Source: Burkholderiales bacterium 67-32 (GTDB lineage Bacteria; Pseudomonadota; Gammaproteobacteria; Burkholderiales; Burkholderiaceae_B). Taken from it: a stretch of 64,000 nt of DNA. Location of the stretch: positions 182,627-246,626 of the forward strand of contig MKUP01000007.1 in the NCBI GenBank assembly GCA_001898625.1, given 5' to 3'. The notes under the pieces are model-generated. The model did not search any database and had not been told where the DNA came from. It worked only from the letters and a program-made list of their open reading frames with translations. A program made the translations under genes and the position numbers. Position 1 is the first letter of the stretch. Each line of letters opens with the position of its first letter. Positions 9,216 to 23,490 of this stretch are shown here, one piece after another.

Positions 9216-10226
9216 ATGAAAAAACCGTCAAACGACAGAGTACGGATGGTGGACGTCGCCCGCCTGGCCAACGTTGCGCCCATCACCGTATCCCGGGCCT
9301 TGAGCCATCCTTCTTCCGTTGCTCCCGAGACCCTGGACAAGATCCATCGTGTCATCAAACAGCTGGGCTACGTGCCCAACGGGCCTGCCGGCAGTTTGAA
9401 GTCCCAGAAGACCCAATTGATCGCGGCGGTCATCCCCAGCATCAACCACCTGTTTCTGACAGCGATGGTGCAAGGGGTCAGCGATTTCCTGTCGCCCTTG
9501 GGCTATCACCTCATGCTGGGTACGTCCGGCGAAACCCTTGAGGGGGAAGAGGCCATCGTCCGGGCGTTCCTGTCCCAGCGGCCTCGTGCGCTGCTCCTCC
9601 ACAACACCGTGCATACCACCGAGTGCGTCAACCTCATACGCGCGTCGGGAATACCGGTCATCGAAACGGGCGACCTGTGCGAGCAGCCGCTTGATACGGC
9701 CGTGGGTTTTTCGAACTTCGACGCCGCCTACACGTTGACCAGGCATCTGATCGATCGCGGGTACGAAAACATCGCCTGCGTCTATGCGCGGTCGCCGCAC
9801 AACGAGCGCACGCAAACGCGGATCAAGGCCTATCGGGCCGCGGTGAACGATGCGGGGCTGCGTTCCGGTCCGGATCTCGAGATAGCGACCGACGGCGATG
9901 TGGCGTCTGGCGCCGTGGTGCTGCGCGATCTGATCGATGCCCGTCCACAGGTGGACGCGGCGGTGTTCTTCGGCGGCAACATGGCCCTGGGCGCGCATCT
10001 CGAATGCCAGAAGATGCGGGTTCCCATTCCCCGGCGCATTGCCATCGTGGCTTTCGAGGATACGGAGATAGGCGCCATGCTGGCTCCCGCCATCACCGCG
10101 CTGCGTATCCCCCGCTACGCGATAGGCCGGGAGGCCGCCCGGGTCGCGCTCGCGCGGATCGGGGGCGGTTCGCCTTCGGGCCATGTGGACGTTGGGTTTG
10201 AACTCTGCATACGGGAAACTTCCTAG
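9216..10226 (+). CDS. LacI-family transcriptional regulator
   Basis: A 336-residue LacI/GalR-type regulator. The helix-turn-helix and hinge read 'VDVARLANVAPITVSRALS' then 'IKQLGYVPN', followed by a two-lobed periplasmic-binding-like effector domain. ATG 9216 puts the HTH at residue 11. An earlier in-frame ATG at 9150 lacks support. Immediately 3' of the gene are two copies of a perfect palindrome of LacI type, one just before the next gene. I infer that this protein represses the following Bug/aldolase/aconitase-type operon. The effector is probably the imported acid or an intermediate. Confidence 0.93.
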   Translation: MKKPSNDRVRMVDVARLANVAPITVSRALSHPSSVAPETLDKIHRVIKQLGYVPNGPAGSLKSQKTQLIAAVIPSINHLFLTAMVQGVSDFLSPLGYHLMLGTSGETLEGEEAIVRAFLSQRPRALLLHNTVHTTECVNLIRASGIPVIETGDLCEQPLDTAVGFSNFDAAYTLTRHLIDRGYENIACVYARSPHNERTQTRIKAYRAAVNDAGLRSGPDLEIATDGDVASGAVVLRDLIDARPQVDAAVFFGGNMALGAHLECQKMRVPIPRRIAIVAFEDTEIGAMLAPAITALRIPRYAIGREAARVALARIGGGSPSGHVDVGFELCIRETS

Positions 10227-10248
10227 TCGTTCTGGACGCGTAGCGTGA

Positions 10249-10266
10249 TATGGTATCGATACCATA
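10249..10266. promoter_or_regulatory. LacI-type operator O1 (18-bp perfect palindrome)
   Basis: TATGGTATCGATACCATA reads identically on both strands. The 16-base core ATGGTATCGATACCAT recurs 90 bases downstream. A central CG and even-length symmetry are typical of LacI/GalR operators. Confidence 0.85.
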
Positions 10267-10339
10267 ACCAGCCATCGCAGAGCTGCCGGGGCGATTCCGC
10301 ATGCGCTATCGCCTGTAGCGGTTGTTTTTTTGAACGACG

Positions 10340-10355
10340 ATGGTATCGATACCAT
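10340..10355. promoter_or_regulatory. LacI-type operator O2 (same 16-bp palindrome)
   Basis: ATGGTATCGATACCAT is identical to the core of O1. It ends just before the AAAGGAGGAG ribosome site of the Bug gene at 10368. Centre-to-centre spacing to O1 is 90 bases, which would allow repression by looping or by a roadblock. Confidence 0.85.
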
Positions 10356-10367
10356 AAAGGAGGAGAA

Positions 10368-11351
10368 ATGAAGACCAGTCGAATCGGGATGGGGGTGCTC
10401 GCGTTGCTGGCGTGGCTGGCGGGGGCGCCGTGTATGGCCCAAGCCACTGAGTGGCCGAACAGACAGGTGAGATTCATTGTTGCCCAGGCTCCGGGGTCGT
10501 CGGCAGATGGGTCCGCGCGGCAGATCGCGGCCGCCCTGGCGGCGATCTGGAAGCAGCCGGTCGTGGTGGAAAACAAGGCGGGGGCGAACGGCATCATCGG
10601 CATGTCGGCTGTCCAGCAGGCTCCCCCTGATGGCTACACCATCGGTTATGCCGCGCCCGGCAACATGACGGTCAATCAGTTCATATACAAGGAAATACCG
10701 TTCGATCCGCTGAAGGACTTCACGCCGGTCACCCAGATGACCAGCATTCCGTTCGCACTGGTCGTCAACGGAAAACTGCCTGTAAAGACCGTCCCGGAAC
10801 TGATTGCCTATATCAAGAACAAGCCGCAGGGCGTCAATTACAGCTCCGCGGGCGTAGGCAATGTAGGGCATCTCGCGGCCGAACTGTTTGCCACTCGGGC
10901 GGGCGTCAAGCTCTACCACATCCCGAACAAGGGCGACAGCCCGGCCCTGCTGGATGTCGCCAGCGGAACCACCGATTTCATGTTCTTGCCGTTGCCTGGG
11001 GCCATGGCGACGATCCGGTCCGGAAACGTGCGCCTGATCGCCGTGGGAGGCAGGCAGCGGATCGATGCGTTCTCCGACGTTCCGACCCTGGACGAATCGG
11101 GGCTGAAGGGCATGTACGTGGAAGGTTGGTCCGGCGTGGTCGCGCCGCCGGGACTTCCGGCCGGCATCGCCCGGAAGATACAGGCCGATTTTTCGAAAGC
11201 GCTGGCGGAGAAAAGCGTGGTCGATTACCTGCGGACCAGCAGCACCCTGGCCGTGGGCTCGACGGCGGAGCAGTTCAAGTCGTTCATGGACGACGAGGCA
11301 GCCAAGTGGTCGGGCGTCATCGACTCGATCGGGCTGAGGAATTCCCACTAG
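10368..11351 (+). CDS. Bug-family TTT solute-binding protein
   Basis: A 327-residue receptor with signal peptide ('LAGAPCMAQA'), 'RQVRFIVAQAPGSSADGSAR', 'KQPVVVENKAGANGI' and 'PPDGYT'. The ATG at 10368 has a strong AAGGAGGAG site. An upstream in-frame extension would translate the operator and is rejected. First gene of the operon controlled by the two LacI-type operators; the aldolase gene begins 17 bases after its stop. The ligand is likely the di- or tricarboxylate fed into the downstream aconitase-type enzyme, by inference. Confidence 0.95.
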   Translation: MKTSRIGMGVLALLAWLAGAPCMAQATEWPNRQVRFIVAQAPGSSADGSARQIAAALAAIWKQPVVVENKAGANGIIGMSAVQQAPPDGYTIGYAAPGNMTVNQFIYKEIPFDPLKDFTPVTQMTSIPFALVVNGKLPVKTVPELIAYIKNKPQGVNYSSAGVGNVGHLAAELFATRAGVKLYHIPNKGDSPALLDVASGTTDFMFLPLPGAMATIRSGNVRLIAVGGRQRIDAFSDVPTLDESGLKGMYVEGWSGVVAPPGLPAGIARKIQADFSKALAEKSVVDYLRTSSTLAVGSTAEQFKSFMDDEAAKWSGVIDSIGLRNSH

Positions 11352-11368
11352 ACACTACCGAGGTGAAC

Positions 11369-12100
11369 ATGTACTTCCCTAACAGGGTGAAGGCCGCCTT
11401 GAAGGATGGCCGGAAGAGTTATGGCGCCATCCTGAGCTGGCCGTCCCCGCAAACCGTGGAGATCGTCGGCAAGCTGGGCCTGGATTTCATCCAGATCGAC
11501 GGTGAGCACGGCGCGTTTTCCCTTCGGGAAATCGAAGAAACCTGCCGCGTGGCCGATCTTTGCGGCATGACGACGTTGGCGCGGGTGCCGGACATTCGTT
11601 CCAGCACCATCCAGCAGTTCATCGACCGCGGCGTGCAGGGAATCGTGGCGCCGCATATCTCGACGTTGGAGCAGGCGGAACAGGTGGTGCGTGCCGCCTA
11701 TTTCGGTCCGATGGGCGATCGTTCATTCGGAAGCGCCCGAGGCGTCGACTATGCGATGGACAAGGGAGACCGGACCGACTTCTACCGCCGGTGCAACGAG
11801 AACATGGTGGTGTGCCTGATGATCGAGGACCGCGAGGGCCTGGAAAACCTGCCCGGCATGGTCAACGTCGATGCCGTCGATTTCTTCTACATCGGGATGA
11901 ATGATTTCTCACAAGGCCTGGGCTATCCGGGGCAGGCGAAGCATCCGGAGGTCCTGAAGGCTCGCGCGAAAGCCTTCGACATCATCCATGCCGCCGGCAA
12001 GAGGATGCGGGAGGACTTCATCGAAGATGTGAGTTCCAAGGAAATCGTGATAGAGGGCACACGGTGCCTGTGGCAGCACACGATCGACCAGGCGAGCTAG
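11369..12100 (+). CDS. HpcH/HpaI-family class II aldolase
   Basis: A 243-residue enzyme of the HpaI / citrate-lyase-beta-like superfamily. It has 'FIQIDGEHGAFSLREI' (His base region), 'TLARVP' (substrate Arg), 'MIEDREGLENL' (metal Glu) and 'FFYIGMNDFSQGLG' (metal Asp). HpaI enzymes are metal-dependent and split 4-hydroxy-2-oxo acids to pyruvate plus an aldehyde. Other members cleave malyl- or citramalyl-type substrates. GAGGTG precedes ATG 11369. It lies between the Bug gene and the aconitase-type subunits. I infer that the hydratase product is cleaved here, but the substrate is unknown. Confidence 0.92.
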   Translation: MYFPNRVKAALKDGRKSYGAILSWPSPQTVEIVGKLGLDFIQIDGEHGAFSLREIEETCRVADLCGMTTLARVPDIRSSTIQQFIDRGVQGIVAPHISTLEQAEQVVRAAYFGPMGDRSFGSARGVDYAMDKGDRTDFYRRCNENMVVCLMIEDREGLENLPGMVNVDAVDFFYIGMNDFSQGLGYPGQAKHPEVLKARAKAFDIIHAAGKRMREDFIEDVSSKEIVIEGTRCLWQHTIDQAS

Positions 12101-12111
12101 AGAGGCAGATC

Positions 12112-13389
12112 ATGGGAATGACAGCGTTTGAAAAGATTGTCGCGCGGGCGGCCGGCGTGCCGGCCGTCAAACCGGGAGATGTGGTCTATCCGATCCCCGA
12201 CCTCATGTTCATGCATGACGGGCAGGTAGGTTCGACCAAGGAAGAGCTGGATGACATCGGCATCGACAAACTGTGGGATCCCTCGCGGGTCGTGATCGTG
12301 ACGGATCACGATGTGGTGTACACGACGCCCAAAGCGGCGCAAAAGGGTATGAAGATCCGCGAGGCCGTCAAGGCGTGGAAGATCGACAAGTTCTATGACA
12401 TCGGAGCGGGCGGCCACGGGCACATTTTTCCCATGGAGCAGGGCTTGGTCCGACCCGGCATGTTCATCTTCGCCAACGACATGCATTGCACCAACTTCGG
12501 CGCGATCGGAGCCGTTGCGCTAAGAATGGGGACTGAGATCGCGACCGTCATCGCGCGTGGAACGACCTGGTTCACCGTGCCGCCGACGGTACGCATCGTC
12601 TTCACCGGACAATTGAAGGCCGGCGTCTATGGCCGGGACGTCGGCTATCGGATATCGCGAGACATGGTGGATGGGAGGCTGTTCGGTGGCAAATACAGCT
12701 ATCGCGTCATCGAACTGGCGGGAGCGGTCCACGACATGGATTTCTCGAACCGCGTGGCGCTCTGCAATTCGCCGACCGAGATAGGCGTGGCCACCTTGTT
12801 CATTCCGCCGTCCGAGCGGTTGAGCGGGTCGATCCCGTTCGACGGCGATCTGGACCTGACCGCTCTTTGCAGTGACGAGGATGCCTGCTACGAGGCGGAC
12901 GAGGTCTTCGACCTGAGCGAACTCGAACCGCAGGTGGCCTTGCCCGGCAGCCCCGATCGGGCCGTGGACGTGAGCGAAGTGACCGGCGTTCACGTGCATC
13001 ACGCGTTCATCGGTTCCTGCGGATCCGGCACTTACGAGGATCTGGTCATTGCCGAGTCGCTGATCCGTGGCAAGCGGATTGCGCCGGGGACGCGCCTGTA
13101 TGTCGCGCCGGGCTCGGTCGAGACGGCGCGCCGCGCCGCGGACGAGGGTCTCATCTCGAGCATCCAGCGGACGGGGGCGATCATCCTGCAGCCGGGCTGC
13201 GGCGTCTGCTCGGGCGGCAAGGTCGGCCCCCTCGGGCCGGGCGAGGTATCGATCTCAACAGCGGCCACCAATGCGCCGGGCCGGATGGGGCCCCGCGACG
13301 CGCAGGTCTACCTGGCCAGCCCGGCCACCGTCGCGGCCTCGTCGCTGCGCGGCGAGATCGCGGATGCGCGCGGACTGACGGCGGCATGA
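12112..13389 (+). CDS. Aconitase/LeuC-family dehydratase, large subunit
   Basis: A 425-residue large subunit of the isopropylmalate dehydratase / homoaconitase type. The [4Fe-4S] cysteines are present: one in 'FIGSCGSGTYEDL' and two in 'QPGCGVCSGGKVGPL'. The 'NDMHCTNFGAIGAVAL' segment replaces the usual DSHT-T-GA-GA. 'SPTEIGVATLFIPP' matches the family TE-G-A strand. ATG 12112 is 11 bases after the aldolase stop. It works with the small subunit at 13418. The sequence is divergent from leucine-pathway LeuC, and its setting with an aldolase, Bug receptor and LacI repressor points to catabolism, for example hydration of an alkylmaleate- or mesaconate-like acid. Confidence 0.9.
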   Translation: MGMTAFEKIVARAAGVPAVKPGDVVYPIPDLMFMHDGQVGSTKEELDDIGIDKLWDPSRVVIVTDHDVVYTTPKAAQKGMKIREAVKAWKIDKFYDIGAGGHGHIFPMEQGLVRPGMFIFANDMHCTNFGAIGAVALRMGTEIATVIARGTTWFTVPPTVRIVFTGQLKAGVYGRDVGYRISRDMVDGRLFGGKYSYRVIELAGAVHDMDFSNRVALCNSPTEIGVATLFIPPSERLSGSIPFDGDLDLTALCSDEDACYEADEVFDLSELEPQVALPGSPDRAVDVSEVTGVHVHHAFIGSCGSGTYEDLVIAESLIRGKRIAPGTRLYVAPGSVETARRAADEGLISSIQRTGAIILQPGCGVCSGGKVGPLGPGEVSISTAATNAPGRMGPRDAQVYLASPATVAASSLRGEIADARGLTAA

Positions 13390-13417
13390 CCGCCGATCGA
13401 CATGCAAGGAGTGGAGA

Positions 13418-13957
13418 ATGATCAGTGAGACCTGGTTGTACGAGGGGCGTTGCCACAAGTTCGGGGACGACGTCCGGCATGACGGATATCTGATGACCCA
13501 GCAGTACGTGACGGACAAGGTATTCGACCCCGAAGTGCTCAAGAGCCACGTCCTGGAAGAGGACCGCCCCGACTTCCGGACCAGCGTGGAACCGGGCGAC
13601 ATCGTTCTGGCCGGTCGCAATTTCGGCAAGGGCAAGGCTCACGTGCAGGGCTATATCGCGCTGCGTTCGCTGGGCGTCGGCGTTGTGTGCGAGTCCATGC
13701 CCTATCTGAGTTTTCGCGGCGCGATCAGCGTCGGGCTGATGTTCATGGCCAATTCCGCGGGCGTCTCCGACCTGGCCGCCGATGGCGACCGGCTGAGGGT
13801 GAACTTCGATACTGGAAGATTCGAAAACCTGACCAGCGGTCTCGTCCGCGACTATCCTCCCTTGCCGGAGGAACTCAGAAAAATCGTCGCCAAGGGAGGG
13901 GCAACGGAAATGCTGAGGCAATGGTGGACGGAAGAGCGGGCGAGGGCGGTAGCGTAG
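13418..13957 (+). CDS. Aconitase/LeuD-family dehydratase, small subunit (variant motif)
   Basis: A 179-residue swivel-domain subunit that pairs with the large subunit 28 bases upstream. Fold landmarks are 'VEPGDIVLAGRNFG' and 'YLSFRGAISVGL'. The canonical substrate loop GxNFGCGSSREHA reads GRNFGKGKAHVQG here. The serine/arginine pair that contacts the substrate carboxylate in LeuD and aconitase is therefore replaced by Lys and His. That argues for a different substrate. Last gene of the operon; the next gene has its own promoter. Confidence 0.88.
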   Translation: MISETWLYEGRCHKFGDDVRHDGYLMTQQYVTDKVFDPEVLKSHVLEEDRPDFRTSVEPGDIVLAGRNFGKGKAHVQGYIALRSLGVGVVCESMPYLSFRGAISVGLMFMANSAGVSDLAADGDRLRVNFDTGRFENLTSGLVRDYPPLPEELRKIVAKGGATEMLRQWWTEERARAVA

Positions 13958-13980
13958 GGCTGTGCCCGGAAGGATTTCTC

Positions 13981-14009
13981 TTGACATCCATCCGGGCCGC
14001 TTGCATAAA
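13981..14009 (+). promoter_or_regulatory. Sigma-70 promoter of the nitrobindin-like gene
   Basis: A perfect -35 TTGACA (13981-13986), a 17-base spacer and a -10 CATAAA (14004-14009) lie 41 bases before the start codon of the next gene. It is the best sigma-70 match I found in the window. Confidence 0.65.
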
Positions 14010-14049
14010 TCCGGCTTCTTTGTCACTCAGCGTTGTTGCCGGACCCACC

Positions 14050-14694
14050 ATGGAAAACTATCCCAAGGACATCTACACCGAGCCGGAACCGGATGTTCAC
14101 ACGCTCGCCAATCTCGGGCCGCTGACCGGCTTGGCCGGCATCTGGACGGGCACGCGCGGGCTGGACATCAACCCCAAGGCCGACGGTCCCGAGAAGCAGG
14201 CCTTCATCGAGCACATGGAGTTGCAGCCCATCGATGCGCAGACCAACGGTCCGCAATTGTTCTACGGGCTGCGCTATCACACCCGCATCGTCAAGCCGGA
14301 CGACGTCGAGACCTTCCACGACCAGGTGGGATACTGGCTGTGGGAGCCCGCAACGGGCGCGGTGATGCAGACACTGTCGATCCCGCGCGGGCAGACGGCG
14401 ATGGCCGTGGGCCAGGCCACCGCCGACGCGAGGCGCTTCAGCCTCCAGGCCGTGCGCGGTTCGCTGACCAACGGGATCGTGTCGAATCCCTTCCTGGAAT
14501 ACGCGTTCAAGACCGAGAGCTACACCATCACGGTTACGGTCAACGACGACGGCACCTGGTCCTACGAGCAGGACACGATACTGGTCATCCCCGGCCAGGC
14601 GGAGCCCTTCCACCACACCGACCGGAACACGCTGCGCAAGATCGGCGAGCCTACGCCTAACCCCACGGCGCAGGCGGCCCTGAAGCGCGCGTAG
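14050..14694 (+). CDS. Nitrobindin-like FABP-fold (DUF1794-type) protein
   Basis: A 214-residue protein. It carries the nitrobindin signature 'LGPLTGLAGIWTGTRG' (residues 22-37), a beta-rich body, and a late 'EPFHHTDRNTLRK' stretch in which a histidine could be the axial heme ligand. Nitrobindin-family proteins are ten-stranded barrels that bind ferric heme and react with NO or peroxynitrite in the studied cases. This one is longer than the minimal barrel. No signal peptide. A consensus promoter lies directly upstream, so it is probably separate from the LacI operon. Heme binding is inferred. Confidence 0.78.
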   Translation: MENYPKDIYTEPEPDVHTLANLGPLTGLAGIWTGTRGLDINPKADGPEKQAFIEHMELQPIDAQTNGPQLFYGLRYHTRIVKPDDVETFHDQVGYWLWEPATGAVMQTLSIPRGQTAMAVGQATADARRFSLQAVRGSLTNGIVSNPFLEYAFKTESYTITVTVNDDGTWSYEQDTILVIPGQAEPFHHTDRNTLRKIGEPTPNPTAQAALKRA

Positions 14695-14739
14695 CCGAGA
14701 GCCTGAAAGCGGCGTCATTCCTGGTTGTGTGTTAGTGCT

Positions 14740-14820
14740 TGCTACTTCTCGTAGCATTTAAATTCAAAGAGTTACGAGAAAAAAGGTATTTTTTCGTGCG
14801 ATGGCAAGGGGGTATTGCCA
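14740..14820. repeat. Cluster of inverted repeats upstream of the dockerin-protein gene
   Basis: Three symmetric elements occupy this AT-rich gap: TGCTAC-TTCTC-GTAGCA (14740-14756), TCTCGTA (14747-14753) facing TACGAGA (14773-14779), and TGGCAA-N7-TTGCCA (14802-14820). The first two share bases and could form alternative hairpins. They may end the nitrobindin transcript or regulate the next gene. No clear sigma-70 promoter was found here. Confidence 0.4.
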
Positions 14821-14860
14821 GAACACCACGAAGAAACGCAACACACACCGGGGGGATCCG

Positions 14861-17179
14861 ATGAGAGGATCGATGTGTACCCGCGCCCGCCATCTATGGC
14901 TGGCGCTGGCGGGTAGTATCGTGCTGACGCTGGCCGCGTGCGGCGGCGACGGCGCCAAGCCGGGCGGCGAGGAGCCGCCTCCGGCATCGAGCAGCAAGGC
15001 CGTGATCGAAGTCCAGGCCGATCGCAGCAATGCGTCGGTGGGCAAGCCGGTAGGCTTCAGTGTTGCCGCCGTAACGGACGGTACGAAGATCGACCAATAT
15101 CGCTGGACGTTCAGTGATGGACAGCGAGCCACGGGACAGCGTGTCTCGGCTTCCTTCGGCAAGGCGGGCCCGGTAACGGCTACCGTGCAGGCCATCTCGG
15201 GTGGCCAGTCCGTGGCCGAAGGCAGCGCCGCAGTCGTGGTGATGGATGCCGGCAATTCGCCGTACGCCGAGTTCGGCATTCCCTCGAAGATCGGCAACAT
15301 CGCCGGCAACGCGAAGCCCGGCCTGGTCGATGCCATGCGCCTGGGGCAGTACGTCGGGGGCTTGAACACGCTGGATGAGCTCCAGGTGGCGCGTGCCGAC
15401 ATCAACCTGGACGGTACGGTCGATGAAGCCGACGTCGCGCTGGCTATGCAGGCGGCCGCCGCCGGCCAGGAACTGCCGTCCGCGCTCCTGAGCACCCAGG
15501 CCTATCCCGGGGCGGTGGTGGCGATGGTGTCGCCGGCGCTGCTGAATCCGGAAGCCCAGGTGGGAATCAAGGTGGACGGCGTCGCCTCGCCCCAGGTATT
15601 CCGCATGCTGCCGGGCTACGCGTCGTTCCTCGTGCCGGCCGGTCTGGCACGCAACGCTAAGGCGCAGGTCGTCGTGTCGGTCAATGGCGCGGCCAGCGAG
15701 ACCCTGGCGCTGGACCTGCTGGCACCGCTCCAGCCTGCGGTACCGGCGGCCCAGGACGTTCGCGCCTTTTTCGATCGGATCGATCGCCTGATGCAGGCGC
15801 AGCACGATGCCATCGTGGCCGAGCCCAGCGGCCTGAGCGCCCAGGACGCCGAACAGTTGCGCAAGGTGGCGACGGCCGGCCGTAGTGCATTCGGCAACGC
15901 CAGGCTGGAGCTCGAACGCGTGCTTGCCGGGCCCAACGGCGACACGCTGGCCAAGGTGTTCCAGAAGGCTCTGCTGGCCAACGGCATGCGCGAATTCCAG
16001 GCCGAGAGCCAGGAGGTGCTGGGCAAGGTGTCTGCGAATGCCGCCGCCGGTCCCATGGCGGCCGCCGTCTCGCCGGACCAGATCTGCGATTTCGTGCTGC
16101 CCGAGCTTTGCCGGCTGAAGAAGACCGCCGACATGCTGGGCGAGGCTTCGTCGATCGCCAGCGCGGCATGCAGCGCGGTCACCGCCACCATCTTCATCGC
16201 GGGCGCGGTGATTCCCGCCGACGGTCCCGCCATCGAGATCGGCGCCGTGGCCGCGTTCGTGAAGTTCTGCGTGCCGATCAGCGCGACGCTGTCGGTGGCG
16301 TCCACCTTGGGCGAGATCGTCAAGCCCATCGATCCCAAGCTGTACTTGACCGTGAGCCCGCTCAGCCTGAAGCCGGGCGAGTCGGCGCTGGTCAAGCCGG
16401 AAGTTGCCTTCATCGGCCTGCAGCATCTGTGCGGCATGGGTGCCAGCCAGGGGGCGGGGTATCTGGTCAAGCAGATCATCGGCAAGCGCGTGGTGGCGGG
16501 GATTCTGCGCAGCAACACGGCGGCTCGCACGCTGGCGGATTTCTTTGCGAGGTACGCGGAGGATCTCTACGTGAAGCTGCTGGACGGTCTGGCCGATGCC
16601 GCCGGCAATGCACTGGACGCCGCCGGCGTGATGGGCGCGATCGAGAGTTTCGTGACCAACCGCTGCGCAGTGGTGCCGGCGGGCCGAGCCACGATGCCGG
16701 CGAATCGCGTCCTGATGCCGTTGAGCGCGGACAAGGGCAGCTACAGCTTCAACTCCGACGGGACGGCGAACTACAACTGCCCGAGCGCGTCGCCCACGTC
16801 GGTCGGTACGGCCACGCTGGAGGCGTCGTGGCCAATGTGCGACGGATTGGGCAAGGCAACCGAGATCGTCGGGTGCAGCACGTCGGACGTCCTGATCACC
16901 ATGGGGGACAATGGTTCCGCGCTGGACGACATCTTCGAGGTCGTCGTCTTCGGCCAGACGGTGCTGACCAGCAGCGCGCCGGTGCGCAGCGTTTCCGCTT
17001 CCGTGCCGATTCCGGCTGGCCAGGCTGAAGTGCTGATGCGCGGTCTGGCCGCGCCGGACGGGATCGGTACGTATTTCATCACCTTCGGCGGCAATGCAAG
17101 GGTAGTGGGTGGGGACGCCCTGTCCGGCAGCGACCTGACCCCGGGCGTGACCAAGCGATTCATCATCGAGGTGCAATGA
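14861..17179 (+). CDS. Lipoprotein with PKD and dockerin-like modules
   Basis: A 772-residue surface-type lipoprotein. The lipobox LTLAAC puts the lipidated Cys at 27, followed by a flexible Gly/Pro/Ser linker. Residues about 46-128 look like a PKD/Ig-like domain ('YRWTFSDGQRATG'). Residues about 144-203 resemble a type I dockerin: a degenerate first repeat, then a canonical calcium loop 'ADINLDGTVDEADVALAM' (Asp180, Asn182, Asp184, Asp188, Asp191). The middle (about 330-640) is mostly helical, and the C-terminal 130 residues are beta-rich with several cysteines. ATG 14861 follows a G-rich ribosome site. Its stop is one base from the next start, so it is coupled to a cohesin-like protein. The function is unknown. 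Confidence 0.85.
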   Translation: MRGSMCTRARHLWLALAGSIVLTLAACGGDGAKPGGEEPPPASSSKAVIEVQADRSNASVGKPVGFSVAAVTDGTKIDQYRWTFSDGQRATGQRVSASFGKAGPVTATVQAISGGQSVAEGSAAVVVMDAGNSPYAEFGIPSKIGNIAGNAKPGLVDAMRLGQYVGGLNTLDELQVARADINLDGTVDEADVALAMQAAAAGQELPSALLSTQAYPGAVVAMVSPALLNPEAQVGIKVDGVASPQVFRMLPGYASFLVPAGLARNAKAQVVVSVNGAASETLALDLLAPLQPAVPAAQDVRAFFDRIDRLMQAQHDAIVAEPSGLSAQDAEQLRKVATAGRSAFGNARLELERVLAGPNGDTLAKVFQKALLANGMREFQAESQEVLGKVSANAAAGPMAAAVSPDQICDFVLPELCRLKKTADMLGEASSIASAACSAVTATIFIAGAVIPADGPAIEIGAVAAFVKFCVPISATLSVASTLGEIVKPIDPKLYLTVSPLSLKPGESALVKPEVAFIGLQHLCGMGASQGAGYLVKQIIGKRVVAGILRSNTAARTLADFFARYAEDLYVKLLDGLADAAGNALDAAGVMGAIESFVTNRCAVVPAGRATMPANRVLMPLSADKGSYSFNSDGTANYNCPSASPTSVGTATLEASWPMCDGLGKATEIVGCSTSDVLITMGDNGSALDDIFEVVVFGQTVLTSSAPVRSVSASVPIPAGQAEVLMRGLAAPDGIGTYFITFGGNARVVGGDALSGSDLTPGVTKRFIIEVQ
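15290..15469 (+). other. Dockerin-like module within the lipoprotein
   Basis: This part encodes residues 144-203. Repeat one ('AGNAKPGLVDAMRLGQYVGG') keeps the helix pattern but has lost most acidic loop residues. Repeat two ('DINLDGTVDEADVALAM') keeps the D-x-N-x-D-G-x-V-D-x-x-D calcium loop. Dockerins normally bind cohesins. Confidence 0.65.
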
Positions 17180-17180
17180 C

Positions 17181-17867
17181 ATGCGTATCCGTTCGTTCAT
17201 TCTTCGGTCGGTGCTGGCCGGCCTGCCACTGACGGCAGCCATGAGTGGCGCCGCGCATGCCCAGTTCGTCGGCGACGCCTTCTTCGTCGATCCTTCGGTG
17301 ACGGCCGTGGCCGGCGCCGAAGGCGCCATACAAGTGGCCGTGTTCTCCGGGACCCAGGCGGTGGGGGCGGCCCACGCCACGATTACCTACGATCCGGCGG
17401 CGCTGGAGATCCTGGCCATCGACCCCGTGGCGGCCGGCCGCGTCACGCCGGCCGTCCAATGGCGCAGGGACGGCAACGTCCTGCACGTCGTGATGGTCAA
17501 CGGCACGTCGCTCACGCAACCCATCGGCACCGTGCCGCTGGGCAACATCCGCTTCAAGGTGCTGGGTCCGGCGCGGGCTACGACCACGCTTACGGCCAAG
17601 GCGACCGAGATCCTGATGCCGGATGCGACGGCCATTCCGCCGGGCGTCAAGAGCTACGACGGCGACGTGACCTTCGTTGAAGCGGTGGCCTCGCCGACGC
17701 CCCGGTTGGCTGGGCTGGCCCGGAAGTCTTCGAGCCCCGACCTGGTGGAGCGGGCAAGGAGGATGCGGCCGGCAGGCGGTACGGTGACGCTACAGGTCCC
17801 CGGTGGGTCGGGGCAGGCGCAGCCCGTGGAGGTCCGGATACCGGCCGCCACGGTGCCGCGAGAGTAG
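17181..17867 (+). CDS. Exported cohesin-like protein
   Basis: A 228-residue protein with a signal peptide cleaved near 'GAAHA|Q' (residue 27). Residues about 38-168 have the cohesin / CBM-like jelly-roll pattern: 'GAEGAIQVAVFSG', 'GAAHATITYDPAALEIL', 'NVLHVVMVNGTS', 'GTVPLGNIRFKVLGPA', then a closing 'YDGDVTFVEA'. The C-terminal 60 residues are basic and low in structure. One base separates it from the dockerin-like lipoprotein, so the pair is made together. I infer that this protein docks on the lipoprotein. Cohesin folds also occur outside cellulosomes, and binding is not proven. Confidence 0.78.
   Translation: MRIRSFILRSVLAGLPLTAAMSGAAHAQFVGDAFFVDPSVTAVAGAEGAIQVAVFSGTQAVGAAHATITYDPAALEILAIDPVAAGRVTPAVQWRRDGNVLHVVMVNGTSLTQPIGTVPLGNIRFKVLGPARATTTLTAKATEILMPDATAIPPGVKSYDGDVTFVEAVASPTPRLAGLARKSSSPDLVERARRMRPAGGTVTLQVPGGSGQAQPVEVRIPAATVPRE
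17292..17684 (+). other. Cohesin-like domain
   Basis: Residues about 38-168 of the exported protein. The 'TYDPAALEIL' turn and the 'G-T-V-P-L-G-N-I-R-F-K-V' strand are the clearest cohesin-type landmarks. The match is by pattern, not by alignment. Confidence 0.6.
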
Positions 17868-17882
17868 GAAAAAGGAAGGTTC

Positions 17883-17903
17883 GAGCCGGCGTTCCGCCGG
17901 CTC
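17883..17903. terminator. Bidirectional hairpin between convergent genes
   Basis: GAGCCGGCG-TTC-CGCCGGCTC is a perfect 9-bp stem. On the minus strand a T-rich run (CCTTCCTTTTTCC) follows about 4 bases later. It overlaps the stop of the minus-strand membrane gene and lies 16 bases after the cohesin-like gene, so it probably ends both transcripts. Confidence 0.6.
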
Positions 17904-18207
17904 ATCCCGCCGTCAGGCTGTCCAGCAACTGGATGGCCAGGTACGCCAGCAGTGCCAGCGCGACGACGGCCTGAAACACAGCCACGAACCAGAAGAGGAG
18001 GGGCGTTTCCCGGCGCCGGATGGTGCGCGGCGGAATGACGAGTTCCCCTTCGCGCAGCCCTTGCAGGTAAAGAGGAAGAAACGCCAGCGGCAGGCACAAC
18101 AGGAGAGCCTGCATGAGGCTGTCGGGCAGCGCGATCCAGCCTTGCTGCCTGGCCCAGGCGGCAAGCACGATGAGGACGAGCACCCCGGCGAAGATGGCCT
18201 GGCGCAT
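17902..18207 (-). CDS. Small inner-membrane protein, unknown function
   Basis: A 101-residue protein with three hydrophobic segments, about residues 4-18, 31-50 and 71-96. A charged cytoplasmic-type loop 'LREGELVIPPRTIRRRETP' separates the last two. I do not recognise a family. Length, codon bias and the hairpin at the stop support a real gene. It is convergent with the dockerin/cohesin operon and need not be related to it. Confidence 0.65.
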   Translation of the reverse strand: MRQAIFAGVLVLIVLAAWARQQGWIALPDSLMQALLLCLPLAFLPLYLQGLREGELVIPPRTIRRRETPLLFWFVAVFQAVVALALLAYLAIQLLDSLTAG

Positions 18208-18340
18208 GGAACGGCTCCCGAGAAGACCGGAGGATGGGGGAGTCTACCAGTCCCTTGCACGGTGATGGTACGCTTGGCCGCGGCTGGAAGTCCCGACCGT
18301 GCGGGCGCTGAGCGCCGATCCGTGGCCGGTCAGCGCCTCA

Positions 18341-18679
18341 GTTCCCGGGCTGGCCGGCCGGGCTTGCCGCAGCCGGAGCCGCCGCGGCCGGTACATCGTT
18401 GCGCGCGACCTCGGCGGTGGCCGCCGGACCATCCTTGGCTTTCTCGACGGCCGCCAGGCTTTACGTCGGCTTGCCATCCTCGCGATGCATCCGGTCGAAG
18501 ACCTGGGGCTCGCCGAAGATCAACTGTACCCAGTCAGGGTAGTTGTAGGCCACGCTCTTGCCGTCCTTGTCGAGTGTTTCGACCCGCAGGGTCTGCATGC
18601 TGTCGCTGGTGATCGAGGCGCATGCGCCCAGTGCGCCGATGCAGGTCGCGGCCAGGATTGAACGAATGAACATCTGCAA
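18341..18679 (-). pseudogene. Small lipoprotein with a premature in-frame stop
   Basis: The ATG at 18679 has a GGGGGAG ribosome site. The product opens with a signal and lipobox 'CIGALGACASITSDSMQ', then 'LRVETLDKDGKSVAYNYPDW'. It stops after 72 residues at a TAA (18461-18463). The same frame then continues 40 more codons with coding-like bias, an Ala/Pro-rich tail beginning 'SLAAVEKAKDGPAATAEVA', to a TGA at 18338-18340. Either one base change truncated the tail, or the tail is chance. The 72-residue form may still be a working lipoprotein. Confidence 0.55.
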
Positions 18680-18780
18680 CTCCCCCGGGGTGCTTTTTTA
18701 TGAGGGAGTAAATGTAATGAAAGATTTCAGAGACAGTAAACGGCGGGCATTCGACGGCGGCATCCGGCGATGACGCAGCC

Positions 18781-19704
18781 TCAGGCGTCGATCGTCCGCG
18801 CCCACGGCTCGCCGACGAAGTGCGTGGTCAGGTATTCCATCAGCGCCTGCACGCGGGCGGGCCTGCCGCGCCCAGGCGGCGTGACGAGGTGCAGCGCGAT
18901 GGGGTCGACCTGCCAGTCGTCCATGGTCGTTTCCAGCGCGCCGGATTGCAGGTCCTGCCAGGCCAGGAATTCGGGCTGCAGGGCCAGGCCGGCGCCCGCG
19001 CGCAAGGCGGGTGTCAGCGCCTCGGCGTTGTTCACCCGCAGCGGCGTGGGCATGGCCTGGGTGAATTCGCCATGGCGGGCATGGCGGAAGCGCCAGCTCG
19101 ATCCGCTGCGCGCGTAGGCGTATTGCAGCGCGCGATGCTGGGCGAGTTCGCGCGGGTGCCGGGGCCGGCCGTGCTGCTCGAAGTAGGCGGGGGAGCCCAC
19201 CAGCAGGATGCGCACGGTGCACAGCCGGCGCACGAGCAGGCTGGAGTCGGCCAGCGTGGAAATGCGTAGCGCCAGGTCGAAGCGCTTTTCGACCAGATCG
19301 ACCTGTTCGTCGCTGAAATGGACATCCAGGGTGACCTCGGGATAGCGCGCCATGAACGGGGGCAGCACCGGCGCCACGTGCGAGATGCCGAAGGACATGG
19401 GGGCGGTCATGCGTATCGGTCCGCGTGGGCTGCTGGACTGCTCGGCCACTTCCGCCTCGACGGCCTCGCCTTCTTCCAGGATGCGCGAGGCACGCTCGAG
19501 CGCGGCCAGTCCGCTTTCGGTCAGGGAGATGCGGCGCGAGGTGCGGTGGAACAGTACGGCTTTCATCCGTCCTTCCAGGCGCGAGACCGCCTTGGAGACG
19601 GTGGCCTGGGACAGCGACAGTTCGGCCGCCGCCCGGGCGAACGAACCGGTTTCGGCCACCTTGGCGAAGATGGCCCAGGCTTCCAGGTCGGGGAGTCGGC
19701 TCAT
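18781..19704 (-). CDS. LysR-family transcriptional regulator
   Basis: A 307-residue LysR regulator. The HTH is in 'GSFARAAAELSLSQATVSKA' and the substrate domain begins 'GPIRMTAPMSFG', the subgroup typical of CrgA/DsdC-like LysR proteins near oxidoreductases. It is divergent from the pirin-headed operon, with 131 bases between, and very likely controls it. The inducer is unknown. Confidence 0.94.
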   Translation of the reverse strand: MSRLPDLEAWAIFAKVAETGSFARAAAELSLSQATVSKAVSRLEGRMKAVLFHRTSRRISLTESGLAALERASRILEEGEAVEAEVAEQSSSPRGPIRMTAPMSFGISHVAPVLPPFMARYPEVTLDVHFSDEQVDLVEKRFDLALRISTLADSSLLVRRLCTVRILLVGSPAYFEQHGRPRHPRELAQHRALQYAYARSGSSWRFRHARHGEFTQAMPTPLRVNNAEALTPALRAGAGLALQPEFLAWQDLQSGALETTMDDWQVDPIALHLVTPPGRGRPARVQALMEYLTTHFVGEPWARTIDA

Positions 19705-19771
19705 GGATTCGTGTCCGGCATGTGTCGGTGTAGATCTAAGAAATGGAAAGTATGCTTTTCAATTAATTCTA

Positions 19772-19800
19772 TTTCAATGGTCTCGACGAGTTTCTATAGT
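19772..19800 (+). promoter_or_regulatory. Putative promoter of the pirin operon
   Basis: A -10-like TATAGT (19795-19800) lies 36 bases before the pirin ATG. A weak -35, TTTCAA (19772-19777), stands 17 bases before it. The AT-rich TTCAATTAATTCTATTTCAA just upstream would suit a LysR site. A weak -35 is normal for activator-dependent promoters. Confidence 0.4.
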
Positions 19801-19835
19801 TCTCTCCATCGAAGCAAGCGAAAGCGGAGAACATC

Positions 19836-20537
19836 ATGATCGAACGTCGTCCCTACGAGAGCCTGGGTGGAGCCAACCACGGATGGCTCGATGCCAAGCA
19901 CCATTTCTCGTTCGCCGGCTATGCCGACCCGGCTCGAATGAACTGGGGTGCGCTGCGGGTCTGGAACGATGACACCATCGCCCCGGGCACCGGCTTCCCG
20001 CCGCATCCCCATGCCGACATGGAAATCATCACCTATGTCCGGGAAGGCGCCATCACCCACCAGGACAACCTGGGGAGCCGCGGCCGCACCGAGGCGGGCG
20101 ACGTCCAGGTCATGAGCGCGGGCTCGGGCATCCGGCACTCCGAATACAACCTGGAGCCCGGCGTGACGCGCATCTTCCAGATCTGGATCTTCCCGGACAG
20201 CCGCGGCGGCCAGCCGTCGTGGGGCGCCAAGCCGTTTCCCAAGGGCGACCGCTCGGGCCAGTTCGTCGCGCTGGCCAGCGGCATGCCGGGAGACGAGGAT
20301 GCCTTGCCCATCCGCGCCGATGCACGGGTGTCCGGCGCCACGCTGAAGGCGGGCGAGACCGCGGAGTACCGCCTGGGAGCCGGCCGCCACGGCTACCTGG
20401 TGCCCGCCACCGGCCGCGTGGACGTCAACGGCGTCGAATTGCAGGCGCGGGACGGCGCCGCGATCCGGGACGAGGACGTCATACGCGTGACCGCCAGCGA
20501 AGATACCGAACTCGTCCTGGTGGACGTGGCCGGCTGA
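19836..20537 (+). CDS. Pirin-family bicupin
   Basis: A 233-residue pirin-like protein. The N-terminal cupin has 'GFPPHPHADMEIITYV' and 'SAGSGIRHSEYN', which supply the three His plus Glu metal site. The C-terminal cupin is degenerate. Pirins include quercetin 2,3-dioxygenases (YhaK/YhhW-like) and redox sensors. First gene of a five-gene operon with an isochorismatase-like hydrolase, XapX, an amidohydrolase and a carrier. The physiological role is open. Confidence 0.92.
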   Translation: MIERRPYESLGGANHGWLDAKHHFSFAGYADPARMNWGALRVWNDDTIAPGTGFPPHPHADMEIITYVREGAITHQDNLGSRGRTEAGDVQVMSAGSGIRHSEYNLEPGVTRIFQIWIFPDSRGGQPSWGAKPFPKGDRSGQFVALASGMPGDEDALPIRADARVSGATLKAGETAEYRLGAGRHGYLVPATGRVDVNGVELQARDGAAIRDEDVIRVTASEDTELVLVDVAG

Positions 20538-20577
20538 CCCACCCATTCCTGTGTTGTTTTCCCCAAGGAGAAGTGCC

Positions 20578-21258
20578 ATGTCCCATTATCTCGACGTCCT
20601 CACGCCCCAGAACAGCCAGATCATCTTCATCGACCAGCAGCCGCAGATGGCCTTCGGCGTGCAGTCGATCGACCGCCAGGTCCTGAAGAACAACGTCGTG
20701 GCGCTGGCCAAGGCGGCCAGGGTGTTCGGCATCCCGACCACCCTCACCACGGTGGAAACCGACAGCTTCTCGGGCAACACCTACCCCGAGCTGCTGGCCG
20801 TGTTCCCGCAGAACAAGATACTCGAACGCACCTCGATGAATTCCTGGGACGACCAGAACGTACGCGACGCACTGGCCGCCAACGGCCGCAAGAAGATCAT
20901 CGTCTCGGGACTCTGGACGGAGGTCTGCAACACCACCTTCGCGCTTTGCGCGATGAAGGAGGGCGGCTACGAGATCTACATGGTGGCGGATGCCTCGGGC
21001 GGTACGTCGCTGGATGCGCACAAGTACGCGATGGACCGCATGGTGCAGGCGGGCGCCGTGCCGGTGACCTGGCAGCAGGTCATGCTGGAATGGCAGCGCG
21101 ACTGGGCCCGCAAGGAAACCTATGACGCCGTGACCGGCATCGTGAAGGAACATTCGGGCGCCTACGGCATGGGCATCGACTATGCCATCACCCACGTGCA
21201 CAATGGCGCGGAGCGCGTCCAGCACGGCGAGCGGATCGGCCCCAACCCGGCCAGGTAA
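20578..21258 (+). CDS. Isochorismatase-like cysteine hydrolase (YcaC type)
   Basis: A 226-residue member of the isochorismatase fold. The nucleophile Asp19 is in 'QIIFIDQQPQM' and Cys117 in 'SGLWTEVCNTTF'. The lysine of the usual Asp-Lys-Cys triad is not obvious; Arg84 in 'ILERTSMNSW' stands nearby. YcaC-type proteins are oligomeric hydrolases of unknown substrate. The ATG follows AAGGAG, 40 bases after the pirin gene. It probably hydrolyses an amide or vinyl-ether-like intermediate. Confidence 0.9.
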   Translation: MSHYLDVLTPQNSQIIFIDQQPQMAFGVQSIDRQVLKNNVVALAKAARVFGIPTTLTTVETDSFSGNTYPELLAVFPQNKILERTSMNSWDDQNVRDALAANGRKKIIVSGLWTEVCNTTFALCAMKEGGYEIYMVADASGGTSLDAHKYAMDRMVQAGAVPVTWQQVMLEWQRDWARKETYDAVTGIVKEHSGAYGMGIDYAITHVHNGAERVQHGERIGPNPAR

Positions 21259-21316
21259 ACCTCCGCGCGCGTGCCGGCTCCCGGCCGCGCGCGACAGTCA
21301 ATCGTCGAGGTCAGCG

Positions 21317-21595
21317 ATGAAACTCTATGTACTGTCATTGGGGGCCGGCCTCTTGGTCGGCATCGTCTACAGCCTGCTCAACGTCCGTTCGCCCGCGCCT
21401 CCGCTGGTGGCCCTGGTCGGCCTGCTGGGCATCCTGGTGGGCGAACAGGTCATCCCCGTCGGCAAGCAGTGGCTGGCCGGGTCCGCGTTCATGTCCGCCT
21501 GCGACAAGTCCTCGGCCGTCGCGCACGTATTCGGCCAGTTGCCCGGCCGCAACCAGGCCACGCCTTCCACCCGGTCCACCGAGGAGCAATCATGA
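21317..21595 (+). CDS. XapX (DUF1427) small membrane protein
   Basis: A 92-residue protein with two hydrophobic helices, 'LYVLSLGAGLLVGIVYSLL' and 'PPLVALVGLLGILVGEQVIP', joined by 'NVRSPAPPL'. This matches the XapX domain. The function is unknown, but such genes commonly sit beside amidohydrolase and isochorismatase-like genes. The C-terminal extension is soluble. Its TGA overlaps the ATG of the amidohydrolase by 4 bases, so the two are translationally coupled. Confidence 0.88.
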   Translation: MKLYVLSLGAGLLVGIVYSLLNVRSPAPPLVALVGLLGILVGEQVIPVGKQWLAGSAFMSACDKSSAVAHVFGQLPGRNQATPSTRSTEEQS

Positions 21596-23478
21596 GCGCG
21601 TCCACCGCCGACCTCATCCTGCGGCATGGCCGTATCACCACGCTGGATCGGGCCAATCCGTCGGCCACTGCCGTCGCGGTCAAGGACGGGCGCTTCCTGG
21701 CCGTGGGCGACGATCGGGACATCATGGCCCTGGCGGGGTCGGCGACCCGGATCGTCGACCTGGGCGGCCGCGGCGTGCTGCCAGGATTGATCGACAACCA
21801 TACCCACGTGATACGCGGCGGGCTCAACTTCAACATGGAGCTGCGCTGGGATGGCGTGCGTTCGCTGGCCGACGCGATGGACATGCTGCGCCGGCAGGTC
21901 GCGATTACGCCGCCCCCGCAGTGGGTGCGCGTGGTGGGTGGGTTTACCGAGCACCAGTTTGCCGAGAAACGCCTGCCGACCATCGCCGAGATCAACGCGG
22001 TGGCGCCCGACACGCCGGTCTTCCTGCTGCACCTGTATGACCGCGCGCTGCTCAACGGCGCGGCGCTGCGAGCGGTAGGCTATACCAAGGATACGCCCGA
22101 GCCGCCGGGCGGAGAGATCACGCGCGATGCCCAGGGCAATCCCACGGGGCTGCTGCTCGCCAAGCCGAACGCGCAGATCCTGTACGCCACGCTGGCCAAG
22201 GGCCCCACGCTGCCGTTCGACTACCAGGTCAACTCCACGCGGCACTTCATGCGCGAGCTGAACCGGCTGGGGGTGACCGGCGTGATCGACGCCGGCGGCG
22301 GTTTCCAGAACTACCCCGATGACTACGCGGTGGTCCGGCAACTGGCCGACGACGGCCAACTGACGGTGCGTCTGGCCTACAACCTGTTCACGCAGAAGCC
22401 GCAACACGAGAAGGAGGATTTCCTGAACTGGACCTCCAGCGTCCGGTACAAGCAGGGCGACGATTACTTTCGCCACAACGGCGCGGGCGAGATGCTGGTG
22501 TTCTCGGCCGCCGATTTCGAGGACTTCCGCCAGCCCCGTCCCGAGATGCCGCCGCAGATGGAAGGCGACCTGGAGGAGGTGGTGCGCATCCTGGCGCAGA
22601 ACCGCTGGCCGTGGCGCCTGCATGCGACCTACGACGAGACCATTTCGCGCGCGCTGGACGTGTTCGAGAAGGTCGACCGCGATATCCCGCTGAAGGGCTT
22701 GAACTGGTTCTTCGACCATGCCGAGACCATCTCCGACCGATCCATCGACCGCATCGCGGCGCTGGGCGGGGGGATTGCCGTGCAGCATCGCATGGCCTAC
22801 CAGGGCGAGTATTTCGTCGAACGCTACGGCGCCGCCGCGGCCGAGGCCACGCCGCCCATCGCCCGCATGCTGGAGAAGGGCGTGAAGGTGTCCGCGGGCA
22901 CCGACGCCACGCGCGTGGCGTCCTACAACCCCTGGGTGTCGCTGGCCTGGATGATTACCGGCAAGACGGTGGGCGGGCTGTCGCTGTATCCGCGGCGCAA
23001 TTGCCTGGATCGCGAGACGGCGCTGCGCATGTGGACCGAGAAGGTGGCCTGGTTCTCGAACGAGGAAGGACGGCGGGGCAGTATTGTCCCGGGGCAGTTG
23101 GCCGACCTGATCGTACCCGACAAGGATTTCTTCGCCTGCGCTGAAGACGAGCTTTCCTTCCTGACCTCGGAACTGACCATGGTGGGCGGCCGTATCGTCT
23201 ACGGCGCGGGGGGCTTTGCCGGCCTGGACGACAACCCGTTGCCGCCGCCCATGCCGGACTGGTCTCCCACGCGCTTGTTCGGCGGCTATGCGGCCTGGGG
23301 CGAGCCCGAGGGCGCGGGGCGTCATTCGCTGGGCTACCGCCGGGTGGCCGCGTGCGGCTGCGCGCAGGCCTGCGGCCTGCATGGGCACGAGCATGCCCGG
23401 GCCTGGGCATCGAAGCTGCCGGTGTCCGATGCGCGGGGTTTCTTCGGAGCGCTGGGCTGCTCCTGCTGGGCGGTCTGA
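21592..23478 (+). CDS. YtcJ-like metal-dependent amidohydrolase with Cys/His tail
   Basis: A 628-residue amidohydrolase-superfamily enzyme. 'GLIDNHTHVIRGG' gives the metal-binding HxH after the first beta-strand. 'NWFFDHAETISD' and 'VSAGTDATRVASYNPW' supply later His and Asp ligands, and 'GQLADLIVPDKD' is the closing composite domain. The last 50 residues hold C-G-C-x3-C-x2-H-x-H-x-H and a final C-S-C, a possible extra metal site. It probably hydrolyses an N-acyl or cyclic amide. Coupled to XapX by overlap and followed by a carrier after 12 bases. Confidence 0.92.
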   Translation: MSASTADLILRHGRITTLDRANPSATAVAVKDGRFLAVGDDRDIMALAGSATRIVDLGGRGVLPGLIDNHTHVIRGGLNFNMELRWDGVRSLADAMDMLRRQVAITPPPQWVRVVGGFTEHQFAEKRLPTIAEINAVAPDTPVFLLHLYDRALLNGAALRAVGYTKDTPEPPGGEITRDAQGNPTGLLLAKPNAQILYATLAKGPTLPFDYQVNSTRHFMRELNRLGVTGVIDAGGGFQNYPDDYAVVRQLADDGQLTVRLAYNLFTQKPQHEKEDFLNWTSSVRYKQGDDYFRHNGAGEMLVFSAADFEDFRQPRPEMPPQMEGDLEEVVRILAQNRWPWRLHATYDETISRALDVFEKVDRDIPLKGLNWFFDHAETISDRSIDRIAALGGGIAVQHRMAYQGEYFVERYGAAAAEATPPIARMLEKGVKVSAGTDATRVASYNPWVSLAWMITGKTVGGLSLYPRRNCLDRETALRMWTEKVAWFSNEEGRRGSIVPGQLADLIVPDKDFFACAEDELSFLTSELTMVGGRIVYGAGGFAGLDDNPLPPPMPDWSPTRLFGGYAAWGEPEGAGRHSLGYRRVAACGCAQACGLHGHEHARAWASKLPVSDARGFFGALGCSCWAV

Positions 23479-23490
23479 GGAGGACGCGAC

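Follow-up and report, generated by a model that had tools for sequence, protein, structure and literature searches.

Cohesin and dockerin modules have been described in several systems which are not cellulosomes. In the archaeon Archaeoglobus fulgidus two consecutively numbered open reading frames (ORFs), ORF2375 with a dockerin and ORF2376 with a cohesin, encode proteins which are reported to bind each other strongly and specifically (PMC9705933). Here we describe a comparable arrangement in Burkholderiales bacterium 67-32 (GenBank assembly GCA_001898625.1), located on a stretch of 64,000 nucleotides of contig MKUP01000007.1 (positions 182,627 to 246,626, forward strand; hereafter the window, position 1 being its first letter). 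Two adjacent genes, P0001 and P0002, encode a lipoprotein with a dockerin-like module and an exported protein with a cohesin domain; together they probably form a bicistron, the products of which would dock one-to-one as a dedicated, non-cellulosomal pair with a single calcium site and one lipid anchor. The A. fulgidus system is archaeal, whereas here the dockerin-like module belongs to a PKD-domain lipoprotein of a Gram-negative bacterium and its binding is predicted from sequence. A. fulgidus is a verified precedent for a non-cellulosomal cohesin-dockerin pair, and the pair described here is a further variant and not categorically new. We call it Pigmentiphaga-type because the related named records belong to Pigmentiphaga, a genus placed by the NCBI taxonomy in the Alcaligenaceae of the Burkholderiales; the present genome presumably belongs to the same genus.

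With the type I clostridial cellulosome the pair shares the folds of its two modules, but the cellulosome has a multi-cohesin scaffoldin, while the present genome holds one cohesin and one dockerin match in place of a several-cohesin scaffoldin and several dockerin enzymes. The cohesins and dockerins of anaerobic methanotrophic (ANME) archaea and their sulfate-reducing partners are likewise non-cellulosomal, with a proposed surface or adhesion role (PMC5244752, PMC9012536, PMC10553843) which includes cell-cell partnerships within the consortia of ANME and sulfate-reducing bacteria (SRB) (PMC10553843); several ANME genomes, however, carry tens of cohesin or dockerin domains (PMC5244752), and the Pigmentiphaga-type genome a single pair. 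In Saccharophagus degradans two ORFs are reported to be dockerin-like and six cohesin-like, and lipobox anchoring is described as well (PMC2386152). Full-text searches of the open-licence literature found one paper with both cohesin and exosortase, on methanotrophic archaea, and no paper in which PEP-CTERM, cohesin and dockerin occur together, and such pairs were undescribed in the titles and abstract openings of the open-licence papers listed on non-cellulosomal, "Burkholderi-", lipoprotein and Pigmentiphaga subjects.

The P0001 and P0002 genes and their modules

By ORF reading, supported for the second gene by Pfam, P0001 (14861..17179, forward strand) encodes 772 residues and P0002 (17181..17867, forward strand) 228 residues, and one base separates the stop codon from the next start at the junction TGA-C-ATG (17177..17183, forward strand). 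An ATG upstream at 14801 would add 20 residues to P0001; the signal peptide and lipobox favour the start at 14861. The coordinates agree with a first-pass annotation of the window, which had described two neighbouring genes one base apart, and the two genes are a tightly coupled pair. Five genomes of the genus have the pair, always in the same order, with a gap of one base in four of them and of zero in the fifth. A promoter and terminator scan of the locus gave no signal above chance. When the whole 6.66 Mb genome was searched in six frames at an E value of 0.001, a single Dockerin_1 and a single Cohesin match were returned, namely P0001 and P0002; because these sole matches adjoin with one base between them, chance pairing is unlikely.

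P0002 starts with a signal peptide (residues 1-27, with AHA before Q28; 17181..17261, forward strand), which was read by eye and not with a prediction program, and has no lipobox. Its cohesin domain (residues 40-149; 17298..17627, forward strand) is recognised by PF00963 at 30.3 bits (E 5.5e-7) in the protein scan and at 31.4 bits in the genome search, above the cut-off of 24.1, and an AlphaFold model of moderate confidence, for which four aligned sequences were the only input, has a cohesin-type beta sandwich. In a Foldseek search of this model against the PDB, ranks 1-21 and 40 of the 50 rows listed were cohesins or cohesin-bearing scaffoldin pieces (a few of them classed by PDB entry, their titles lacking the word cohesin), for example 2vo8 (E 1.0e-6) and the non-cellulosomal A. 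fulgidus cohesin 2xdh (E 2.4e-6), and seven of the other ten listed were integrin chains. The cohesin-like fold pattern proposed in the first-pass annotation is thus supported both by Pfam and by likeness to solved cohesins. Searched by sequence, P0002 gave just two weak PDB matches, to unrelated proteins, and no match on plasmids. The C-terminal tail (residues 167-228; 17679..17864, forward strand), predicted as a helix and a hairpin, occupies the place of the PEP-CTERM tail found in the paired relatives described below; the Pfam scan listed no PEP-CTERM match in P0002 up to E 10.

The lipobox of P0001, read by eye, is L24-A25-A26-C27 followed by G28 (14930..14941, forward strand), and residues 21-34 are invariant in a four-sequence alignment. 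In Escherichia coli the residue at +2 after the lipobox cysteine directs the sorting of lipoproteins, those with Asp at this position not going to the outer membrane; because P0001 has Gly at +2, the lipid anchor at Cys27 would most likely sit in the outer membrane. A PKD domain follows at residues about 50-117 (15008..15211, forward strand), with PF18911 (E 9.9e-9) and PF00801 both above cut-off, so that the lipobox and the PKD-like domain of the first-pass annotation both hold.

The dockerin-like module spans residues 144-203 (15290..15469, forward strand), of which residues 156-194 align to Dockerin_1 (PF00404), and its first repeat is degenerate. Set against a cut-off of 22.9 bits, the match reached 19.5 bits (E 0.0011) when the protein was scanned with hmmscan and 24.7 bits in the six-frame genome search, and the proposed dockerin assignment therefore passes or fails with the search used. 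The single intact calcium loop, D180-I-N-L-D-G-T-V-D-E-A-D191 (residues 180-191; 15398..15433, forward strand), has the annotated pattern D-x-N-x-D-G-x-V-D-x-x-D, and in the four-sequence alignment D180, N182, D184, D188 and D191 are invariant and G185 is variable. Type I dockerins are defined by two calcium-binding F-hand loops; because only the loop at 180-191 is intact in P0001, we call the module dockerin-like. A scan with NCBIfam gave no relevant match.

P0002 was found in five of 200 genomes of the family, all five among the 11 genomes of the genus (own included), and P0001 in the same five. Against three relatives, the ratio of nonsynonymous to synonymous substitution rates (dN/dS) was 0.08-0.11 for P0001 and 0.15-0.31 for P0002, values which indicate purifying selection on both genes, and dN in the dockerin segment was 0.023, 0 and 0.015. 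Genome G199, which is without the pair, keeps the flanks at 89.7% and 91.5% identity and holds, in place of window positions 14678-18375, about 1 kb (L176:10368-11396) with no blastn match to window positions 10000-24000; the pair therefore sits at a variable locus.

The remainder of P0001 consists of a helix-rich middle region (residues 401-610; 16061..16690, forward strand; from a low-confidence model), slow-evolving with dN of 0.004, 0.002 and 0.019 against the three relatives, and a C-terminal domain of about 94 residues (residues 679-772; 16895..17176, forward strand), common by sequence similarity to large lipoprotein-like frames elsewhere. Over these last 94 residues P0001 shares 48% identity with the end of a lipoprotein-like frame of 1455 residues (L095:1993-6360), which has PKD and TIG domains and lies on a Photobacterium plasmid, the one record found in a plasmid search with P0001 and matched through this domain only; a frame of genome G637 (L125) shares the domain at E 2.1e-12. 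By eye, the helical region before the domain is also partly alike in these large frames and P0001. Relatives of P0001 occur in 14 of 369 genomes of the class, own included, 12 by the N-terminal stretch around the PKD domain only and G637 by the C-terminal domain only. As a known family P0001 yielded no function from Pfam beyond PKD and dockerin, nor from NCBIfam, PHROGs or the PDB by sequence, where the matches were confined to collagenases, weakly in the PKD region, and a dockerin at E 1.2.

Elsewhere in the window, the palindrome ATGGTATCGATACCAT is present in two perfect copies (10250-10265 and 10340-10355), operator-like in appearance, between genes named by eye as a LacI-type regulator and a tricarboxylate-receptor-like gene.

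Adjacent pairs across the Burkholderiales

Among 399 Burkholderiales genomes, 59 have Cohesin and 31 have Dockerin_1 matches. The surroundings were read for 41 of the 56 Dockerin_1 matches, that of P0001 included, the other 15 lying in frames of more than 4000 residues. All frames at these 41 loci were searched with cohesin models and also read by eye. The first model, drawn mainly from long frames, missed several tailed cohesins and a second was built from tailed ones; Pigmentiphaga sequences had entered this iterated model by its last round, and late scores for these were not used. A short cohesin gene was found beside the dockerin gene in five of the 41 (G000, G253, G529, G213 and G387), and a cohesin in the same frame as the dockerin in five; in 31 no cohesin was detected, among them contig C98 of G230, where the match is at a contig end. 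The four pairs of this first set outside Pigmentiphaga all have dockerin partners above the Pfam cut-off, which are a reprolysin-type metalloprotease (L075), a calcineurin-like phosphoesterase (L076), a GDSL hydrolase (L088) and a C25 peptidase (L091). Their cohesins are above the Pfam cut-off in L075 and L076 and below it, at 16.0 bits, in L091; the neighbour cohesin of L088 has no Pfam Cohesin match and a PEP-CTERM score of 18.8 vs a cut-off of 20.7.

These four cohesins were aligned with three further tailed ones and two Pigmentiphaga sequences (alignment A3, nine rows). Used as a profile against the 399 genomes at E 1e-4, A3 matched 22 times, in 18 genomes; 16 of the matches lie in frames shorter than 400 residues. 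For nine of these 16 short cohesins, own included, a dockerin is found in the adjacent same-strand gene: the five named above, all in A3, and those of G214, G252, G500 and contig C6 of G446, which are not in A3. Contig C17 of G230 holds a tenth, marginal pair, recognised at 13.9 bits (domain) with our own dockerin model and by eye; Pfam finds an EF-hand but no Dockerin_1 in the partner and nothing in its cohesin. Two more of the 16 are at contig ends with the neighbour beyond reach (contigs C31 and C35 of G230), and four have no dockerin within about 5 kb (G475, which is in A3, G227, G417 and contig C34 of G446). The less biased figure comes from the eight short cohesins outside A3, of which four are paired, or five with the marginal one. 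In total, pairs occur in nine other genomes of the 399, one of the nine marginal, and the recurrence covers nine families of the order, own included, one of them by the marginal case alone. The pair annotated for an Alcaligenaceae-like genome is therefore present there but is not isolated.

The dockerins of the four newer loci (L177, L178, L179 and L183) were identified with our own 11-row dockerin model; at E 0.01 Pfam Dockerin_1 matched L177 only, below cut-off, and Pfam Cohesin scored below cut-off in L177, L178 and L179 and gave no match in L183. As a control, 807 frames drawn from 30 cohesin loci and the window were scored: only four reached 14.9 bits, the score of the weakest of the newer four, and all of these, the window's own included, were already dockerin-matched. 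The partners are a cadherin/PKD adhesin-like protein in L177 (where PEP-CTERM on the cohesin scores 20.2 vs 20.7), a protein with only EF-hand matches below cut-off in L178, an IgGFc-binding-domain protein in L179 and an RHS/RTX-type protein in L183. Over the eight pairs outside Pigmentiphaga, the dockerin is always at the C-terminus, four partners are hydrolase-like, and the PEP-CTERM tail of the cohesin is above the Pfam cut-off in six and just below it in two. A ten-row profile of the tailed cohesins retrieves solved cohesins, with a best E value of 4.6e-9.

The survey gave further observations on cohesin and dockerin frames. Many cohesin frames of the order are of about 800 residues and others are giant. 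One of the former, L087:6312-8801, was read completely; it is a secretin (PF00263) which carries at its C-terminus a cohesin match of 22.8 bits, just below cut-off in that scan. In family f29 (L119, L120, L122, L123 and L124) dockerin and cohesin matches lie in one polypeptide, which could bind head to tail. Two tailed cohesin frames of G230 (L084:8426-9375 and L085:1-956) have no stop codon and continue through the start of another exported protein until the contig ends, and a dockerin frame on another contig (L114) starts with part of that same sequence. Lipoproteins of about 300 residues beside the dockerin genes of G226 and G536 (L086:7619-8527, L094:5528-6415 and L094:6419-7339) are mutually alignable at 41% and 26% identity; two of them were scanned and had no Pfam match, and as candidate divergent cohesins they reached E 0.45 in profile comparison and were left uncounted.

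A probable dedicated docking pair and its alternatives

In a dedicated docking pair, P0001, once exported, would be held by a lipid at Cys27, most likely in the outer membrane; P0002 would be exported as a soluble protein, the cohesin sandwich of which would bind the dockerin-like module with its one intact calcium loop. P0002 would thereby be held one-to-one on the lipoprotein, and the near-abutting genes would provide matched amounts of the two proteins. Such one-to-one pairing fits because dockerin and cohesin each match only once in the genome. As regards the one-to-one coupled docking system put forward in the first-pass annotation, the module identities, the tight gene coupling and the single matches in the genome stand, and we infer the physical docking, together with its calcium dependence and the outer-membrane location. 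As no enzyme family was matched, the complex would more likely serve in binding or adhesion, at the surface or in the periplasm; Pfam found no glycoside hydrolase in P0001 or P0002.

The tailed pairs resemble this one in having adjacent genes for one short exported cohesin and one dockerin protein. They differ in that their cohesin bears a PEP-CTERM tail, absent from P0002, and their dockerin is at the C-terminus, whereas in P0001 it is internal and the dockerin partner itself bears the lipid anchor. Exosortase (PF09721) has no match in the present genome, and the combination of PEP-CTERM tail and exosortase which marks an exosortase-anchored cohesin was thus not found. The Pigmentiphaga-type pair accordingly reads as a swapped version, with lipid anchor on the dockerin partner, no exosortase match and no PEP-CTERM tail. 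Tentatively, and at slightly less than an even chance, we propose a Burkholderiales class of one-to-one pairs in which a hydrolase or adhesin, exported and with a dockerin at its end, would be held at the surface by an exosortase-anchored single-cohesin protein from the adjacent gene; in Pigmentiphaga the exosortase would be dispensed with, and a lipid on the dockerin partner would serve as the anchor instead.

A number of observations weigh against a dedicated docking pair. The dockerin match is borderline, its first repeat is by eye without the D-x-N-x-D-G pattern (a degeneracy which the first-pass annotation had rightly recorded), and the AlphaFold model of P0001 is poor, with a mean predicted local distance difference test score (pLDDT) of 34.3, only the PKD domain confident, and a quality too low for fold search; the mean for P0002 is 63.6, with the other four models at 27-44. 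P0002 evolves faster than P0001, and the pair is absent from six of the 11 genus genomes. Across the order, five of 41 is a low share of dockerin genes with a short cohesin neighbour, and among the eight paired tailed cohesins Pfam Cohesin is above cut-off in two, below in four and absent in two, the adjacent dockerin being above cut-off in four of eight. A tailed-cohesin profile built without P0002 matches it with an hhalign probability of 7% and an E value of 0.0051; because P0002 resembles the tailed group this weakly once it is left out of the profile, common descent is unsupported, and what the two kinds of pair share is an arrangement.

Both modules may also be real folds which do not bind each other, the loop being a structural EF-hand-like element and the cohesin a sandwich of generic type in a secreted protein which acts on its own, with adjacency arising from one common function. 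Dockerin_1 does match loops in seemingly non-docking proteins, such as the GP-PDE-like proteins of L089, L092 and L093 (by eye), the 31 dockerin surroundings with no cohesin detected in the same frame or in a short neighbour include those of G321, G392 and G421, the cohesin-bearing secretin frame of L087 has no Dockerin_1 match, and beside the Photobacterium relative of the C-terminal domain no cohesin was recognised among the plus-strand frames printed, as read by eye and with no search. We nevertheless consider non-binding modules unlikely, given that the only dockerin and the only cohesin match of the genome are neighbours and that short cohesin genes adjoin dockerin genes in nine of 16 cases. 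A different view of the same pair is that P0002 docks on P0001 only in passing, as a folding partner or carrier, and has its real target elsewhere, such as a polysaccharide of the matrix or a partner on another cell, reached through the tail at residues 167-228. The predicted structure of this tail, the invariance of residues 195-206 (MRPAGGTVTLQV) in four sequences and the cell-partnership role proposed for the ANME/SRB consortia (PMC10553843) would suit a target of this kind, but the genome has no second dockerin match, the most distant relative has a diverged tail (dN 0.327 vs 0.192 for the cohesin part), the tail has no Pfam family match, and we judge docking in passing to be quite improbable.

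A dedicated docking pair remains the reading we prefer, and the recurrence of adjacent gene pairs across families of the order is more interesting than the single pair. As the pairs are short, adjacent and single-copy, the likely partner of each module can be predicted and their function is open to direct test in Gram-negative bacteria. Should the tailed pairs bind, they would offer a further way of holding secreted hydrolases on the surface of Gram-negative cells, and small binding pairs could be drawn from them.

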